Assembly (NCBI GenBank): GCA_902626435.1
Contig: CACOFO010000001.1
Location: forward strand, 1 to 64,000
DNA from: an uncultured Prochlorococcus sp.
GTDB lineage: Bacteria > Cyanobacteriota > Cyanobacteriia > PCC-6307 > Cyanobiaceae
Reading direction: 5' to 3'
Length of the DNA: 64,000 nt
Part shown: positions 6,160-18,642 of the stretch, one piece after another
Position numbering within the stretch: the first letter of the stretch is position 1
Layout: each line of letters opens with the position of its first letter
Program-made: the position numbers and the translations under genes
The notes under the pieces: generated by a model
Databases searched by the model: none
Seen by the model: the letters and a program-made list of their open reading frames with translations, nothing else
What the model was told of the DNA's origin: nothing

Positions 6160-6262
6160 TACCATGAGGCAGCTCCTAAACTTACTAAAGTCACCTTCCT
6201 ATGGCTTGAGTCTTACTGCGGTCTATCAAATAGTAGATCGGACGATTTTCTAGTATTTACTA
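6160..6262. ncRNA. candidate ncRNA locus, strand undetermined
   Basis: Locally GC-enriched, ORF-poor intergenic segment with short inverted repeats. Confidence 0.25.
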
Positions 6263-6928: not shown

Positions 6929-7048
6929 ATGGAGAAATCTTTAGTCAACTTCTTTTACTGGATACTAATAAAATTAGCCGAATCTCATTATGGGGAATCA
7001 TTTTTATCTATAGAAGTTCCTTCTAATTCAATTAAAAGTTTTTCTTGA
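6929..7048 (+). CDS. small 'MEKS' family protein copy 1 (39 aa: MEKSLVNFFYWILIKLAESHYGESFLSIEVPSNSIKSFS)
   Basis: Hand-read ORF; paralogous to 9490..9597. Confidence 0.65.
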   Translation: MEKSLVNFFYWILIKLAESHYGESFLSIEVPSNSIKSFS

Positions 7049-8995: not shown

Positions 8996-9202
8996 TTGAA
9001 ATTAACTATTCAAATCAATAAAAATAGGTGTAGTTATCAGGTATGTCTTATGGCATTAAATGACACATTTTCTATTCAAGATATTAATTTTTACAAAAAA
9101 CATCTTTTAAATGATAATAAGCCAAAAGAAATTGAAGCTTATTGGAATAAAGAATGTTCAGAGCATCCAAGTAATAACCATTGCAAGATTTTTTGTGATT
9201 AA
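8996..9202 (+). CDS. C-x8-C mini-protein, cassette copy A (TTG start; ends EAYWNKECSEHPSNNHCKIFCD)
   Basis: ORF 68 aa; C-terminus and MKLT start shared with 15162..15326. Confidence 0.7.
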   Translation: MKLTIQINKNRCSYQVCLMALNDTFSIQDINFYKKHLLNDNKPKEIEAYWNKECSEHPSNNHCKIFCD

Positions 9203-9288
9203 TAACCTAAATTTTTAGGTATTCTTACGCTTGATTTTTATACAATTGCCGTATTAGAGAATAAATAGATAGAAGTAAGGCCAAGCAA

Positions 9289-9390
9289 ATGACTAATTTA
9301 GGTATAGAGATTTTATTCTGGACAATTTTAATTTCTTATCTGGGATTAAGATTTTCTCAAACTTGGGATGGATTCAAAAAACAGTATTAA
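9289..9390 (+). CDS. 'MTNL' one-helix peptide, cassette copy A (33 aa: MTNLGIEILFWTILISYLGLRFSQTWDGFKKQY)
   Basis: Hand-read ORF; near-identical layout to 15414..15515. Confidence 0.75.
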   Translation: MTNLGIEILFWTILISYLGLRFSQTWDGFKKQY

Positions 9391-9489
9391 TTAGTAGAAA
9401 AGAAAATCTAAATCTCTTCTATTAAGTATTTTCTACGATGTTTTTATTTAAGATTCTTATTTGAATTAAGAAAGGTTATAAATGTTCCT

Positions 9490-9597
9490 ATGGAAAAATC
9501 ATTTCTAAATTTCATTTATTGGATCCTATTAAAGTCAGCTGAAAGTTACTATGGGGATTCAATGAAAACAGAAGTCCCATACACACCTTATTTTTAG
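9490..9597 (+). CDS. small 'MEKS' family protein copy 2 (35 aa: MEKSFLNFIYWILLKSAESYYGDSMKTEVPYTPYF)
   Basis: Hand-read ORF; paralogous to 6929..7048. Confidence 0.65.
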   Translation: MEKSFLNFIYWILLKSAESYYGDSMKTEVPYTPYF

Positions 9598-10498: not shown

Positions 10499-10642
10499 TT
10501 AAATAACACCTGGAACAATTTGTCCAGTTGTTATGTATGCTCCAACAAGAGCAATTAGGCCAACAAGAGCAAATTTACCATTCAAATTCTCAGCTTTGAT
10601 TTTTTGAGGATCAATATTTCTTGATTGATTTTTATCTTTCAT
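10499..10642 (-). CDS. hli: high-light-inducible protein (47 aa: MKDKNQSRNIDPQKIKAENLNGKFALVGLIALVGAYITTGQIVPGVI)
   Basis: Hand-read ORF with HLI motif. Confidence 0.95.
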   Translation of the reverse strand: MKDKNQSRNIDPQKIKAENLNGKFALVGLIALVGAYITTGQIVPGVI

Positions 10643-10758
10643 TAATAGATACCAGGGATAAGTTGACCGGTTGTTAAATAAGTTCCCACTAAGATCATGA
10701 AAGCCATCATTGCTGGTCTTCCGATTGCTCTGTTGAGAATATCTTTATTAGAATTCAT
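10642..10758 (-). CDS. hli: short high-light-inducible protein (38 aa: MNSNKDILNRAIGRPAMMAFMILVGTYLTTGQLIPGIY)
   Basis: Hand-read ORF with HLI motif; its TAA overlaps the next ATG (TAATG). Confidence 0.93.
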   Translation of the reverse strand: MNSNKDILNRAIGRPAMMAFMILVGTYLTTGQLIPGIY

Positions 10759-11058: not shown

Positions 11059-11274
11059 TCAATGAATATGTTCTGCTTCATTATGATTATGGCCATTGTG
11101 ACCATGAGCAATACCTAATTCATGCATCCTTGCATGCTCTTGGTTTGTGTCTCTTAGTTTATGAGAAGAGGGTCCAACTGTTGTATAAATTCCATAATCT
11201 ATTGAGCCAAAAAGTGAAATTTCAACACTGCCAAAAAGTAAAAATAAAGTGGGATCTTTGATCGTTCCTAACAT
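11059..11274 (-). CDS. small protein with His-rich C-terminus (HELGIAHGHNGHNHNEAEHIH)
   Basis: ORF 71 aa; eight His in the last 21 residues. Confidence 0.75.
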   Translation of the reverse strand: MLGTIKDPTLFLLFGSVEISLFGSIDYGIYTTVGPSSHKLRDTNQEHARMHELGIAHGHNGHNHNEAEHIH

Positions 11275-11626: not shown

Positions 11627-11992
11627 ATGGAAGTTTTGCTTTTTGCACTTTTTTTTATTAGCGCACTAATTTTCTTTATTGCAGGTAAAGATGATTTTGG
11701 AAGGACTAAAAGTAATTCAACAATAAAGGGAGAGGAAAATATCAAAGATAGGGATAAGGTTGCAGAAGAAATAAAGATAGAGGATAAGGTCGCAGAAGAA
11801 ACAAAGATAGAGGATAAGGCCGCAGAAGAAACAAAGATAGAGGATAAGGTCGCAGAAGAAACAAAGATAGAGGATAAGGCCGCAGAAGAAACAAAGATAG
11901 AGGATAAGGTCGCAGAAGAAATAAAGATAGATGATAAGGTCGCAGAAGAGGGGAATATTGAACCCCAAGAGGAACTCAAAAAAGAATCTTAA
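11627..11992 (+). CDS. membrane-anchored repeat protein, N-terminal TM then 10-aa repeats DK[VA]AEE[TI]KIE
   Basis: ORF 121 aa; repeat visible in both protein and DNA. Confidence 0.75.
   Translation: MEVLLFALFFISALIFFIAGKDDFGRTKSNSTIKGEENIKDRDKVAEEIKIEDKVAEETKIEDKAAEETKIEDKVAEETKIEDKAAEETKIEDKVAEEIKIDDKVAEEGNIEPQEELKKES
11753..11962 (+). repeat. in-frame tandem repeat, 7 x 30 bp; units 2+3 and 4+5 form an identical 60-bp higher-order unit
   Basis: gataaggtcgcagaagaaacaaagatagag-type units read directly. Confidence 0.97.
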
Positions 11993-14710: not shown

Positions 14711-14875
14711 CTAATGCTCATTGATGCAATAGGGATTACTATGTGATTTAACGCAAAAAATGTTTTTGCGTAGATGAGCTCTCATACCTTGTAAATAAAA
14801 ATTTTGTGTCATAAAAACGCCAAAATAAATTAATAAAACCGTCAATATAAGAAGCTCTAATCCTAGGTTGGTCAT
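14711..14875 (-). CDS. third 'MTNL' peptide with C-x8-C tail (54 aa: MTNLGLELLILTVLLIYFGVFMTQNFYLQGMRAHLRKNIFCVKSHSNPYCINEH)
   Basis: Hand-read ORF; strong SD (aaaggaggttactcaaaATG); N-terminus paralogous to 9289 and 15414 ORFs. Confidence 0.7.
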   Translation of the reverse strand: MTNLGLELLILTVLLIYFGVFMTQNFYLQGMRAHLRKNIFCVKSHSNPYCINEH

Positions 14876-15161: not shown

Positions 15162-15326
15162 ATGAAACTAACTACTCCATTCACAACTCTCAGAAATGCA
15201 ACTTCAGATATGTGGAGAATGCATGATTTCAATTATCAATTACCCAAAAAAGAATTAAAAAAATATTGGGATCAAGAATGCATAGCGCATCCTACTAATA
15301 GTCATTGCAAAATTTATTGTGATTAA
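15162..15326 (+). CDS. C-x8-C mini-protein, cassette copy B (54 aa: MKLTTPFTTLRNATSDMWRMHDFNYQLPKKELKKYWDQECIAHPTNSHCKIYCD)
   Basis: Hand-read ORF; strong SD (aaaggaggttttATG); paralogous to 8996..9202. Confidence 0.8.
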   Translation: MKLTTPFTTLRNATSDMWRMHDFNYQLPKKELKKYWDQECIAHPTNSHCKIYCD

Positions 15327-15413
15327 TATCCTATCTATTTTAAGTATTCTTAATCTTGATTTTTGGATTTAATCCGTACTAAAGATCAGTTATTAAAAAA
15401 GGAGGAAAAGTAG

Positions 15414-15515
15414 ATGACTAATTTAAGTTTAGAGATTATTTTTTGGACAATCTTAATTACATATCTTGGATTAAGGTTGAATCAAACTTGGAATGGCTAC
15501 AAACAACAATATTAA
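15414..15515 (+). CDS. 'MTNL' one-helix peptide, cassette copy B (33 aa: MTNLSLEIIFWTILITYLGLRLNQTWNGYKQQY)
   Basis: Hand-read ORF; SD aaaggagg; paralogous to 9289..9390. Confidence 0.8.
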   Translation: MTNLSLEIIFWTILITYLGLRLNQTWNGYKQQY

Positions 15516-15528
15516 TTAGGAGGGGCAA

Positions 15529-15651
15529 ATGAATCTGCAAACACCATTTTCTTTTACCAAAAAAGATTTGAGAGATCTTGATTACGTAAGGAAAATGCAA
15601 ACTTTAGAAAAAACTCTAAAACAAAGTTTTATAGATAATCCATCTGCATAA
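15529..15651 (+). CDS. small soluble peptide (40 aa: MNLQTPFSFTKKDLRDLDYVRKMQTLEKTLKQSFIDNPSA)
   Basis: Hand-read ORF; SD taggagggg. Confidence 0.65.
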   Translation: MNLQTPFSFTKKDLRDLDYVRKMQTLEKTLKQSFIDNPSA

Positions 15652-15749
15652 GATTGTTTAGTTTGTTGCCACTAAGTATCAATAAATAATTATTTTTTGC
15701 AAATAAATTCTAGTCGTATTTGTTAATCCCATAGCAGAGAGGTTGAATT

Positions 15750-16268
15750 ATGGAATTAAAATTCTGCCCTACAACTATTTTTAGAGAAACTCCCAAAGTA
15801 ACTTTTTTTGATGCAGGCATAGAGTCTACTAATGGTTGTGATGTAGTTATGCATTCAGGAGAAGCTATATCACCTCCAGATGAATTTAAAAATGAACAGT
15901 ACTACGTTCATAATCATCAAATTGATCACAATTTAGTTATTACTGGTGAGCGTAAATTTATTTTGATAAATCCAAATTGGGACGAGCCACATCATGTGAT
16001 TTATCTAAAAAAATCTATGGGAGCACTTGAAATTCCTATTGGAACTTTTCACAGGTCAATCTCTGGTAAAGAAGGGAGCATTGTTTTAAATCAACCTATA
16101 AGAGATAAATTTTTTGATCCAAAAAAAGAATTTATCCCTCAAAAACTCAACAAATTAAGCCTTATTAAGGCTAGAAAAAGTCCTCCCGTTTATTGGATTT
16201 GGGAAAATGATCAAATCAAAAGATTAATGTTCAATCCTTTAGTTAAAAAAACTGCAAATTCAAATTGA
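15750..16268 (+). CDS. cupin-like conserved hypothetical protein
   Basis: ORF 172 aa; cupin-like HNHQIDHNLVITGER...GTFHRSISGKEGSIVLNQ. Confidence 0.7.
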   Translation: MELKFCPTTIFRETPKVTFFDAGIESTNGCDVVMHSGEAISPPDEFKNEQYYVHNHQIDHNLVITGERKFILINPNWDEPHHVIYLKKSMGALEIPIGTFHRSISGKEGSIVLNQPIRDKFFDPKKEFIPQKLNKLSLIKARKSPPVYWIWENDQIKRLMFNPLVKKTANSN

Positions 16269-16317: not shown

Positions 16318-17709
16318 ATGAAAAAAAGAGTTATTGTTCTAGATACAAATGTTTTATTACATGATCCTGAGTCACCTCTGCATTTTGCCAATGAAAATGT
16401 TGTAATTCCAATTCAGGTAGTTGAAGAGGTTGATAGATTCAAAAGGGATCCTGGCGAGAAGGGACGAAATGCTAGAAGAGTTTCAAGATTATTAGATAGT
16501 CTCCGAGAAAAAGGTAATCTATCCTCTGGCGTAAAAATTAATAATAAATCTGAGGGGACAATAAAAGTTGCATTTTGCAGAAAAGAGACTACTGATAGAT
16601 TACCCTCAGAGCTTAGTGACAGCAGTGGAGATAATAAGATTTTAGCTGTCGCTCTTGAAGAAAAAAATACCAAAATTTTATCAGACTTTCCTGAAGTCGT
16701 ACTTATTTCAAAAGATACAAATTTAAGAATCAAAGCGGATGCTGTTGGTCTCAAAGCTGAAGATTTTACTAAAGATAAGGTTGCTTTAGATAATTTAGAT
16801 AAGGGTTTTAGGGAAATAGGTTCAAATTCAGATGAGATAAATAAGGTTCAAAAAGATGGGTTTATTTATTTAAGAGATATTAAATCAAAATTTGAACCAT
16901 CTTTAGTGAGTAATGAGGGTGTAATCTTGCGAGATAATTTAAAAGAGAATCATACCTACTTAACAAGATATAATCGATCTGAGAAAAAGTTAGTAGGTCT
17001 AAATTTTTTAAGAAGATCAAATTTAGGCAAAGTAAAACCTAAGAATCTTGAACAAAGTTTTGCTTTAGATTTACTCCTAGATCCAAAAGTTCAATTGGTA
17101 AGTCTTGTAGGAAAAGCTGGTACAGGTAAAACTTTACTTGCTTTGGCAGTAGGATTACATCAAGTTGCAGACGAAAATTTATACGAAAGATTATTAGTAT
17201 CTAGACCACCAATACCTTTAGGCAAAGAATTAGGTTATCTCCCAGGTAGTCTTGATGAAAAATTAGCTCCTTGGATGAAGCCAATAATTGATAATTTAGA
17301 TTATTTAACAACTCCAAATTCAAATAAAAATGGAGCAAGAGTTAATCAAAAAGAAAGAGATATTAACTCTAAGAATTCATGGGAAGACTTGAAAGGCATG
17401 GGTCTCTTAGAAGTAGAGGCAATAAACTACATCAGAGGAAGATCAATACCAAATCAATTTATTCTTATTGATGAAGCCCAAAATTTAACACCTTTAGAAG
17501 TAAAAACTATCGTTACCAGAGCTGGAGAAGGAACAAAAATTGTTTTTACAGGAGATCCAAACCAAATAGATCATCCATATCTTGATTCTGATAGTAACGG
17601 ATTGACTTGGTTAGCTAAAAAATTGCATGGTCAAAAAATAATTGGACACATAACTTTATCTCAAGGAGAAAGAAGTGATTTAGCAGAATTAGCGGCTGAT
17701 CTTTTATAG
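16318..17709 (+). CDS. PIN domain + PhoH-like ATPase
   Basis: ORF 463 aa; PIN N-terminus VLDTNVLLHDP; Walker A GKAGTGKT; FILIDEAQN. Confidence 0.93.
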   Translation: MKKRVIVLDTNVLLHDPESPLHFANENVVIPIQVVEEVDRFKRDPGEKGRNARRVSRLLDSLREKGNLSSGVKINNKSEGTIKVAFCRKETTDRLPSELSDSSGDNKILAVALEEKNTKILSDFPEVVLISKDTNLRIKADAVGLKAEDFTKDKVALDNLDKGFREIGSNSDEINKVQKDGFIYLRDIKSKFEPSLVSNEGVILRDNLKENHTYLTRYNRSEKKLVGLNFLRRSNLGKVKPKNLEQSFALDLLLDPKVQLVSLVGKAGTGKTLLALAVGLHQVADENLYERLLVSRPPIPLGKELGYLPGSLDEKLAPWMKPIIDNLDYLTTPNSNKNGARVNQKERDINSKNSWEDLKGMGLLEVEAINYIRGRSIPNQFILIDEAQNLTPLEVKTIVTRAGEGTKIVFTGDPNQIDHPYLDSDSNGLTWLAKKLHGQKIIGHITLSQGERSDLAELAADLL

Positions 17710-17745: not shown

Positions 17746-18642
17746 ATGGAGAACAATATGAATGACAAGATTAAATGTGATTTTGAACAAGAAAGAAGTA
17801 ACGAGGTTGAATTAGTTGCAAGTAATTTAGAAGCAATTTTAAAATCTAGCACTTACAAACTTGCTCACGAAGATATTGACTTATTAAATACTGATGAAAT
17901 GAGAGGGGTGAGGATGCTCCTTGAGATTACAAAGCCTGAGCAGGTTATTGAAAAAGAAAATATTATTTCAACCGTTATTGTCTTTGGAGGAGTCCACATA
18001 TCAGAAGAAATTACATCCAAAAGAAGGCTAGATGATGCAGAAAAACTTCTTTCAAGTAATCCTAAATCTAAATCTTCAAAGATAAATTTTGAGAGATTAA
18101 AAAATTTGCACTCTCTATCACATTATTATTCCGAAGCAAGAGAATTATCTAAATTAATCTCACTGGATAGCAAAACGAAAAATCCTCATTCTCACGTAAT
18201 AGTTACTGGCGGTGGACCCGGGATTATGGAAGCAGCTAATAGAGGAGCGTTTGATGCTGGATGTAAATCGATTGGATTAAATATAAGCCTGCCTAATGAG
18301 CAACATCCTAATTCTTTTATAACTCCAGGATTATGTTTTAAATTTAATTATTTTGCAATGAGGAAATTTCACTTTGTTATGAGATCTGCCGCTGCTGTTT
18401 TTTTTCCTGGAGGATTTGGAACTTTAGATGAATTATTTGAATTATTAACATTAAGACAAACTGGGATGAAAAAGAATATTCCAATAATTTTATTTGGCAG
18501 AAGCTACTGGGAAAAGTTAATTAATTTTCAATTCCTTTCTGATATGGGTTTGATTGGAGAAAATGATTTGTCTATTTTTCAGTACGCGGATACAGCAAAT
18601 GAGGCTTGGAACTTAATAAAGAATTATAAGTATATTAATTAA
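17746..18642 (+). CDS. LOG family (lysine-decarboxylase-like) protein
   Basis: ORF 298 aa; GGGPGIMEAANRGA and PGGFGTLDELFE. Confidence 0.93.
   Translation: MENNMNDKIKCDFEQERSNEVELVASNLEAILKSSTYKLAHEDIDLLNTDEMRGVRMLLEITKPEQVIEKENIISTVIVFGGVHISEEITSKRRLDDAEKLLSSNPKSKSSKINFERLKNLHSLSHYYSEARELSKLISLDSKTKNPHSHVIVTGGGPGIMEAANRGAFDAGCKSIGLNISLPNEQHPNSFITPGLCFKFNYFAMRKFHFVMRSAAAVFFPGGFGTLDELFELLTLRQTGMKKNIPIILFGRSYWEKLINFQFLSDMGLIGENDLSIFQYADTANEAWNLIKNYKYIN

Follow-up and report, generated by a model that had tools for sequence, protein, structure and literature searches.

Organisation of the locus

The window analysed here (64,000 nucleotides, GC 30.6%) comes from a draft genome of 1.07 Mb that is 65% complete. 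It contains two clusters of small genes, A and B, whose features are collected in Table 1. In each, a gene for a small cysteine-bearing protein (gene 1) is followed by one for a single-helix micropeptide (gene 2). Aligned with each other, the clusters match at 75.8% over 277 bp (E 3.7e-52), a stretch that takes in the last part of gene 1, the spacer and gene 2; the two gene pairs and matching spacers described in an earlier note on this DNA are thus both present, but the unit is not limited to two genes, as that note had supposed.

Table 1. Features of clusters A and B and their surroundings, in positions of the window.
Feature	Position	Strand	Remarks
A1, gene 1 of A-type cluster	9050..9202	+	50 aa, CP12-type tail CSEHPSNNHCKIFCD; ORF, orthologue alignment, purifying selection, CP12-tail scores
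Conserved upstream element of A2	9214..9239	+	within the gene 1-gene 2 spacer
A2, gene 2	9289..9390	+	33-aa single-helix micropeptide; purifying selection; phrog_36745 match, E 2.4e-4
A-cluster break point	9391..9410	.	gene 3, cupin-like and LOG-like genes absent, compared with MIT9401 (L080) and G004 (L153)
C2, gene-2-like single-helix protein with C-terminal extension	14711..14875	-	divergent from B1
Same upstream element, before C2	14925..14945	-	
B1, gene 1 of B-type cluster	15162..15326	+	54 aa, tail CIAHPTNSHCKIYCD
Conserved upstream element of B2	15339..15364	+	
B2, gene 2	15414..15515	+	33-aa single-helix micropeptide; phrog_36745 match, about E 1e-4
B3, gene 3, homologue of gene 1	15529..15675	+	stop codon at 15649-15651
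Cupin-like gene	15750..16268	+	after gene 3 in most strains; weak WbuC-cupin match alone, E 0.045
PIN-PhoH ATPase	16318..17709	+	adjoins the B cluster here, the A cluster in MIT9215
LOG-like (TIGR00730 type) gene	17746..18642	+	downstream of cluster

The A1 and B1 proteins are 46% identical over 39 residues of the C-terminal part, and their N-termini differ, since the likely start of A1 is the ATG at 9050 and not the TTG at 8996. Comparison with A-type orthologues places the conserved start at this ATG (MALNDTF); the TTG, from which copy A had been read as beginning MKLT, is out of frame in the orthologues shown, where the stretch from TTG to ATG is 2 nt longer, and was therefore rejected as a miscall. 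The stop codon within B3 removes a segment that is read as DCLVCCN in the orthologues, none of which has the stop.

Several other small ORFs lie in the same part of the window. Positions 6929-7048 and 9490-9597 (+) hold another related pair (MEKSxxNFxYWIL...YGxS), repeated near the cluster in other strains, and 10499-10758 (-) holds two short ORFs that resemble high-light-inducible (hli) proteins and have no Pfam match. The ORF at 11059-11274 (-) is PsbN-like (Pfam PsbN, E 2e-4, below the cut-off), and its tail EHARMHELGIAHGH is shared with a P-TIM68 protein annotated as PsbN. At 11627-11992 (+) an ORF carries repeated EDKVAEETKI-type units; the reverse strand is likewise open.

Conservation and history of the clusters

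The cluster is conserved, in the order gene 1, gene 2, gene 3 and cupin-like gene, in high-light Prochlorococcus, a label given to the genus on account of its strains MED4, MIT9401, MIT9314 and MIT9107. Among 80 named loci, each carrying gene 2, 77 have gene 1 directly upstream, at 88-89 nt in 74 cases and with the gene-1 copy broken or shortened in three. Downstream of gene 2, gene 3 is present in 79 of the loci, and the complete order is found in 72. Gene 3 is homologous to gene 1 (hhalign E 8e-11). The two genes are also adjacent in the reverse order in four genomes: G015, G022 (presumably MIT9515), G105 and G106. G015 is taken to be MED4; its Yfr1 motif, at 1,000,781 on the minus strand, falls within the coordinates published for yfr1. 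The link between them thus survives rearrangement, and their co-occurrence in other host genomes, on which the earlier reading depended, is borne out.

The ranges of the two families are different. Gene 2 was found in all 37 genomes of this genus and in none of 83 others, that is in one of 22 genera of the order, and gene 1, by profile search, in 71 of 120 genomes of the order. These belong to 12 of its 22 genera, and the gene-1 scores are lower in those genera that do not comprise Prochlorococcus-like genomes. The larger genomes with gene-1 relatives were taken to be marine Synechococcus. MED4 has six gene-1 matches. Both genes look coding and are adjacent, which agrees with the proposal of a two-component small-protein system; a strict pair is not supported, because gene 1 often stands alone and has the wider range, a separate upstream element precedes gene 2, and the cluster also includes gene 3 and the cupin-like gene.

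In a tree of DNA covering the last part of gene 1, the intervening spacer and gene 2, copy B of the window falls among the B-type copies of other genomes (support 100/100) and copy A among A-type copies; the bootstrap had not converged, and support is low for many of the internal branches. A single cluster occupies the A site in MIT9401 and in MIT9215 (presumably G041). In the window, the A cluster has lost everything that normally follows gene 2, and the PhoH and LOG-like genes stand with the B cluster, at a distance of 6 kb. Both types are likewise present in G024, where B2 is frameshifted, and in G026, where it is truncated. The sequences fit better with two old lineages that coexist with decay, each having orthologues in other strains, than with a recent duplication. 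Of the idea that a whole unit had been duplicated and kept, what stands is that there are two copies, one without its downstream genes and one with a stop in gene 3; they do not appear to have arisen by duplication within this genome.

Selection and a conserved upstream element

Genes 1, 2 and 3 all look coding, since omega among A-type copies is 0.29, 0.12 and 0.19, respectively, and genes 1 and 2 are under purifying selection; the B-type set for such estimates is small and mixed. The A-type spacer differs by 6.8% between strains, against 15-20% at synonymous sites, which indicates that it is constrained as well. A conserved element with the core GTATTnnnAnnCTTGATTTTT stands before both gene 2 and its relative C2, and nearly every occurrence of this core in the fetched loci precedes one of these genes. 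The element looks promoter-like. A near-copy is found upstream of the solo gene 1 of MED4.

Gene 1 ends in a CP12-type tail

The C-terminus of gene 1 has the pattern C-x3-P-x4-C-[KRL]-x-[YF]-x-D, which runs right up to the stop codon, within a longer conserved end, YW-x-x-E-C-x-x-[HN]-P-x4-C-[KL]-x-[YF]-[CD]-D. The pattern CxxxPxxxxC is that of the CP12 tail, the part of CP12 that binds GAPDH and that is also present on GapB and ADK3 (PMC9406205). The motif was recognised first in gene 1 and tested afterwards. A gene-1 profile made without any CP12 and compared with 177,635 PDB sequences matched CP12 chains only (3b1j, E 0.022; 3zdf, E 0.11; 6gfo, E 0.11); with the Synechococcus relatives added, it matched seven CP12 sequences (best E 0.0012) and the unrelated surfactant protein B (E 0.078). 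The PDB matches of the gene-1 profile are fragments seen in GAPDH-CP12 crystals, and the matches read in other cyanobacteria were CP12-type proteins. When the solo gene-1 protein of MED4 was used as a single query against the PDB, CP12 was missed.

In a comparison with a set of 13 CP12 tails, all of the gene-1 tails examined score above each of 14,526 ORF tails without the motif (z 6.9-8.4), several of the top tails in this null set being damaged gene-1 copies. The tail of gene 3 is weaker (z 5.1, with 6 ORFs equally high). Among 8,295 ORFs of the fetched loci, the stop-anchored pattern C-x3-P-x4-C occurs in gene 1, gene 3 and CP12 only; most of these loci were fetched for these genes, hence the scan shows a low background and not a frequency.

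The tail varies within the family. Relatives in marine Synechococcus end closer to CP12, such as YWEERCDKSPTAPGCKIYDD, and in them, as in those of low-light Prochlorococcus, the end is complete (KVYDD or KIYDD). In the most frequent solo form the sequence stops at CKVY, without the last two residues of the tail, which could weaken docking to GAPDH, and A1 and B1 carry an extra cysteine (YCD and FCD) that is absent from the CP12 tails read.

The match to CP12 spans about 15-20 residues and is confined to the tail; aligned with hhalign it is weak (probability 6%, P 0.006). A gene-1 relative matches PF02672 in register, at E 0.018 and below the cut-off; the gathering score of 22.7 bits is reached by no gene-1 member, the best relative having 16.2 bits and the window proteins no match. 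Structure prediction gave a low-confidence model (pLDDT 59). Like CP12, gene 1 encodes a small protein with the cysteine pair near the C-terminus and a [KRL]-x-Y-x-D end flush with it. Unlike CP12, it has no AWD_VEEL core in any sequence read and is multi-copy. The N-terminal cysteine pair is also absent from A1 and B1, as it is from ordinary Prochlorococcus CP12. Moreover, it coexists with a normal CP12, which is encoded elsewhere in the source genome (G000:C2:28290-28493). Cyanophage CP12 has the tail in common with gene 1, but aligns along the entire host CP12. The use of the tail as a separate module is known from the C-terminal extension of GapB, the extension of ADK3 and CBS-CP12 proteins (PMC9406205, PMC4436894); there it is fused to an enzyme or domain, whereas the gene-1 product is a short protein that stands by itself.

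The earlier note had seen in the two genes a candidate for an undescribed small-protein system, with gene 1 as its Cys-rich member. Neither has a Pfam, NCBIfam or PADLOC name, and gene 1 does bear cysteines; judged by its C-terminus, however, it appears to be something more specific, a free-standing variant of the CP12 tail, with the micropeptide as a separate neighbour.

Gene 2 and its relatives in cyanophages

In phages, peptides resembling gene 2 but only some 27 residues long were matched in 45 records; almost all of these are cyanophages, and both myoviruses and podoviruses are represented. They are often unannotated and lie between or overlap their neighbours. PHROG 36745, a cyanophage micropeptide of about 27 aa, shares with gene 2 the start M[TN]N-x2-LEI-x-FW (E 2.7e-5 to 2.4e-4); its profile gives partial matches to A2 (E 2.4e-4) and B2 (E 9.9e-5), limited to 18 of its 27 positions, at the N-terminus. 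GVFKK forms the end of the phage peptide, whereas gene 2 is longer, with an end of the QTWNGFKKQY type.

Phage P-TIM68 carries a gene-1 relative at 129 kb, following an hsp20 gene; its gene-2-like peptide comes next to the gene for the sliding clamp, on the downstream side, and CP12 is encoded separately, at 60 kb. In P-SSP7 the micropeptide PSSP7_053 (L196:2501-2581) lies directly before talC, and in P-TIM40 PTIM40_24 (L198:1501-1584) lies directly after CP12. A general pairing of phage CP12 with this peptide was considered and rejected, since P-TIM40 was the only such case among the contexts read.

In the window, C2 has a gene-2-like helix and then an extension with C-x8-C (FCVKSHSNPYC), in which the proline is not at the CP12 position. 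That C2 might be a fusion of the gene-1 and gene-2 types is only a thought.

Genomic context in MED4

In MED4 the reversed pair, with gene 2 and gene 1 about 27 nt apart, lies downstream of two hli genes (1,334,598-1,335,652) and within 1 kb of Yfr20 (1,336,435), in genomic island 5. Genes of this island respond to phosphorus starvation and high light (PMC2518516). A solo gene 1 (G015:C1 627532-627690; by its coordinates probably PMED4_07142) immediately precedes Yfr14, whose RNA level increases at an early stage of phage infection. The MED4 relative of C2 (657,730) is probably PMED4_07522, again by coordinates.

Prochlorococcus has another 33-residue ORF, the Yfr6 peptide of MED4 (PMC1242208). 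Gene 2 is not this peptide: Yfr6 has a downstream-peptide (glutamine-II) leader and lies at 627729-627972, as opposed to 1335380 for gene 2. No such leader precedes A2 or B2, the only such motif between 5000 and 20000 being a glutamine-II riboswitch at 6185-6247 (-) (RF01704, 39 bits, above the cut-off), of the kind that forms the leader of Yfr6-type small ORFs in Prochlorococcus.

Proposed function and alternatives

The oxidised CP12 tail inserts its last residues into the active site of GAPDH and is released by thioredoxin, and it is functional on GapB and ADK3 as well (PMC9406205, PMC4436894, PMC3906501). By analogy, we propose tentatively, and with slightly less than even confidence, that gene 1 encodes a redox-switched tail protein acting on GAPDH. 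The product would be a microprotein made of a short N-terminal part and a C-terminal CP12 tail, in which, as in CP12 and GapB, oxidation would join the two cysteines in a disulfide. Closed in this way, the tail would occupy the active site of Gap2, the photosynthetic GAPDH, and slow the enzyme, and reduction would free the tail again. As the body of CP12 is missing, gene 1 probably does not recruit PRK, and would thus be a GAPDH-only brake, added to ordinary CP12. The position of gene-1 copies near hli genes and genomic islands suggests use in light stress or phage infection. Phage CP12 is believed to inhibit the Calvin cycle of infected cells (PMC5082946).

The steady neighbourhood of the two genes, in both orders, suggests that gene 2 may be a partner of gene 1; as a single-helix membrane micropeptide it might hold or tune the tail protein at the membrane. 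A real competitor, although we give it less than even weight, is that the genes are functionally unlinked and are merely neighbours among independently expressed small stress genes. The upstream element of gene 2, the different ranges of the two families and the many contexts of the phage peptide, beside talC in podoviruses and beside CP12 only in P-TIM40 among those read, all favour this alternative, but the persistence of adjacency in two opposite orders and the near-copy of the element before the MED4 solo gene 1 speak against it.

Slightly less probable, though still a serious alternative, is that the tail derives from CP12 but serves another target, or that its cysteines do different work, in a disulfide or a metal site, and GAPDH is uninvolved. 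The variation of the tail, with the extra cysteine of the high-light copies and the shortened end of the common solo form, would be accounted for in this way, and the strongly conserved N-terminal part of the solo form suggests another partner; CBS-CP12 proteins, furthermore, carry the tail and yet are thought to be unable to bind GAPDH (PMC3906501). On the other hand, the complete ends retained in low-light Prochlorococcus and Synechococcus, and the origin of the profile matches in GAPDH-CP12 crystals, are more readily reconciled with action on GAPDH.

That the pair serves as a toxin-antitoxin or phage-defence module, in which gene 2 would be a small toxin of the membrane, is very improbable. 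Gene 2 is indeed short and hydrophobic, the loci are near islands, and the idea has been raised for another small-peptide locus of MED4, Yfr6/Yfr14 (PMC2518516). However, gene 1 is mostly solo, phages carry gene-2-like peptides, and gene 2 is intact where gene 1 is broken (L070, L079), which is incompatible with an antitoxin role; no PADLOC profile of known anti-phage defence families matches. Of similarly low or slightly lower probability are selfish or neutral ORFs without function, kept through recombination, as the many copies per genome, several of them broken, might suggest: the selection data, in which omega is 0.12-0.29 and the spacer varies less than synonymous sites do, and the presence of gene 2 in every genome of the genus disfavour them.

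A wider form of the proposed brake on GAPDH, which we regard as a distinctly speculative extension and improbable as it stands, is a membrane-coupled switch of high-light Prochlorococcus, in which the MTN micropeptide would hold or deliver free tail proteins so that GAPDH is shut locally under light or phage stress, apart from CP12-PRK, both parts having been borrowed by cyanophages.

CP12 is a well-studied brake of the Calvin cycle and is carried by cyanophages. The resemblance of gene 1 to its tail offers a first functional lead for an unnamed family of small ORFs, and gene 2 ties an unannotated phage micropeptide to a host gene family. If Prochlorococcus, abundant as it is, indeed possesses additional stand-alone CP12 tails, encoded in clusters close to light-stress genes, its carbon fixation may have several redox brakes that annotation has missed.
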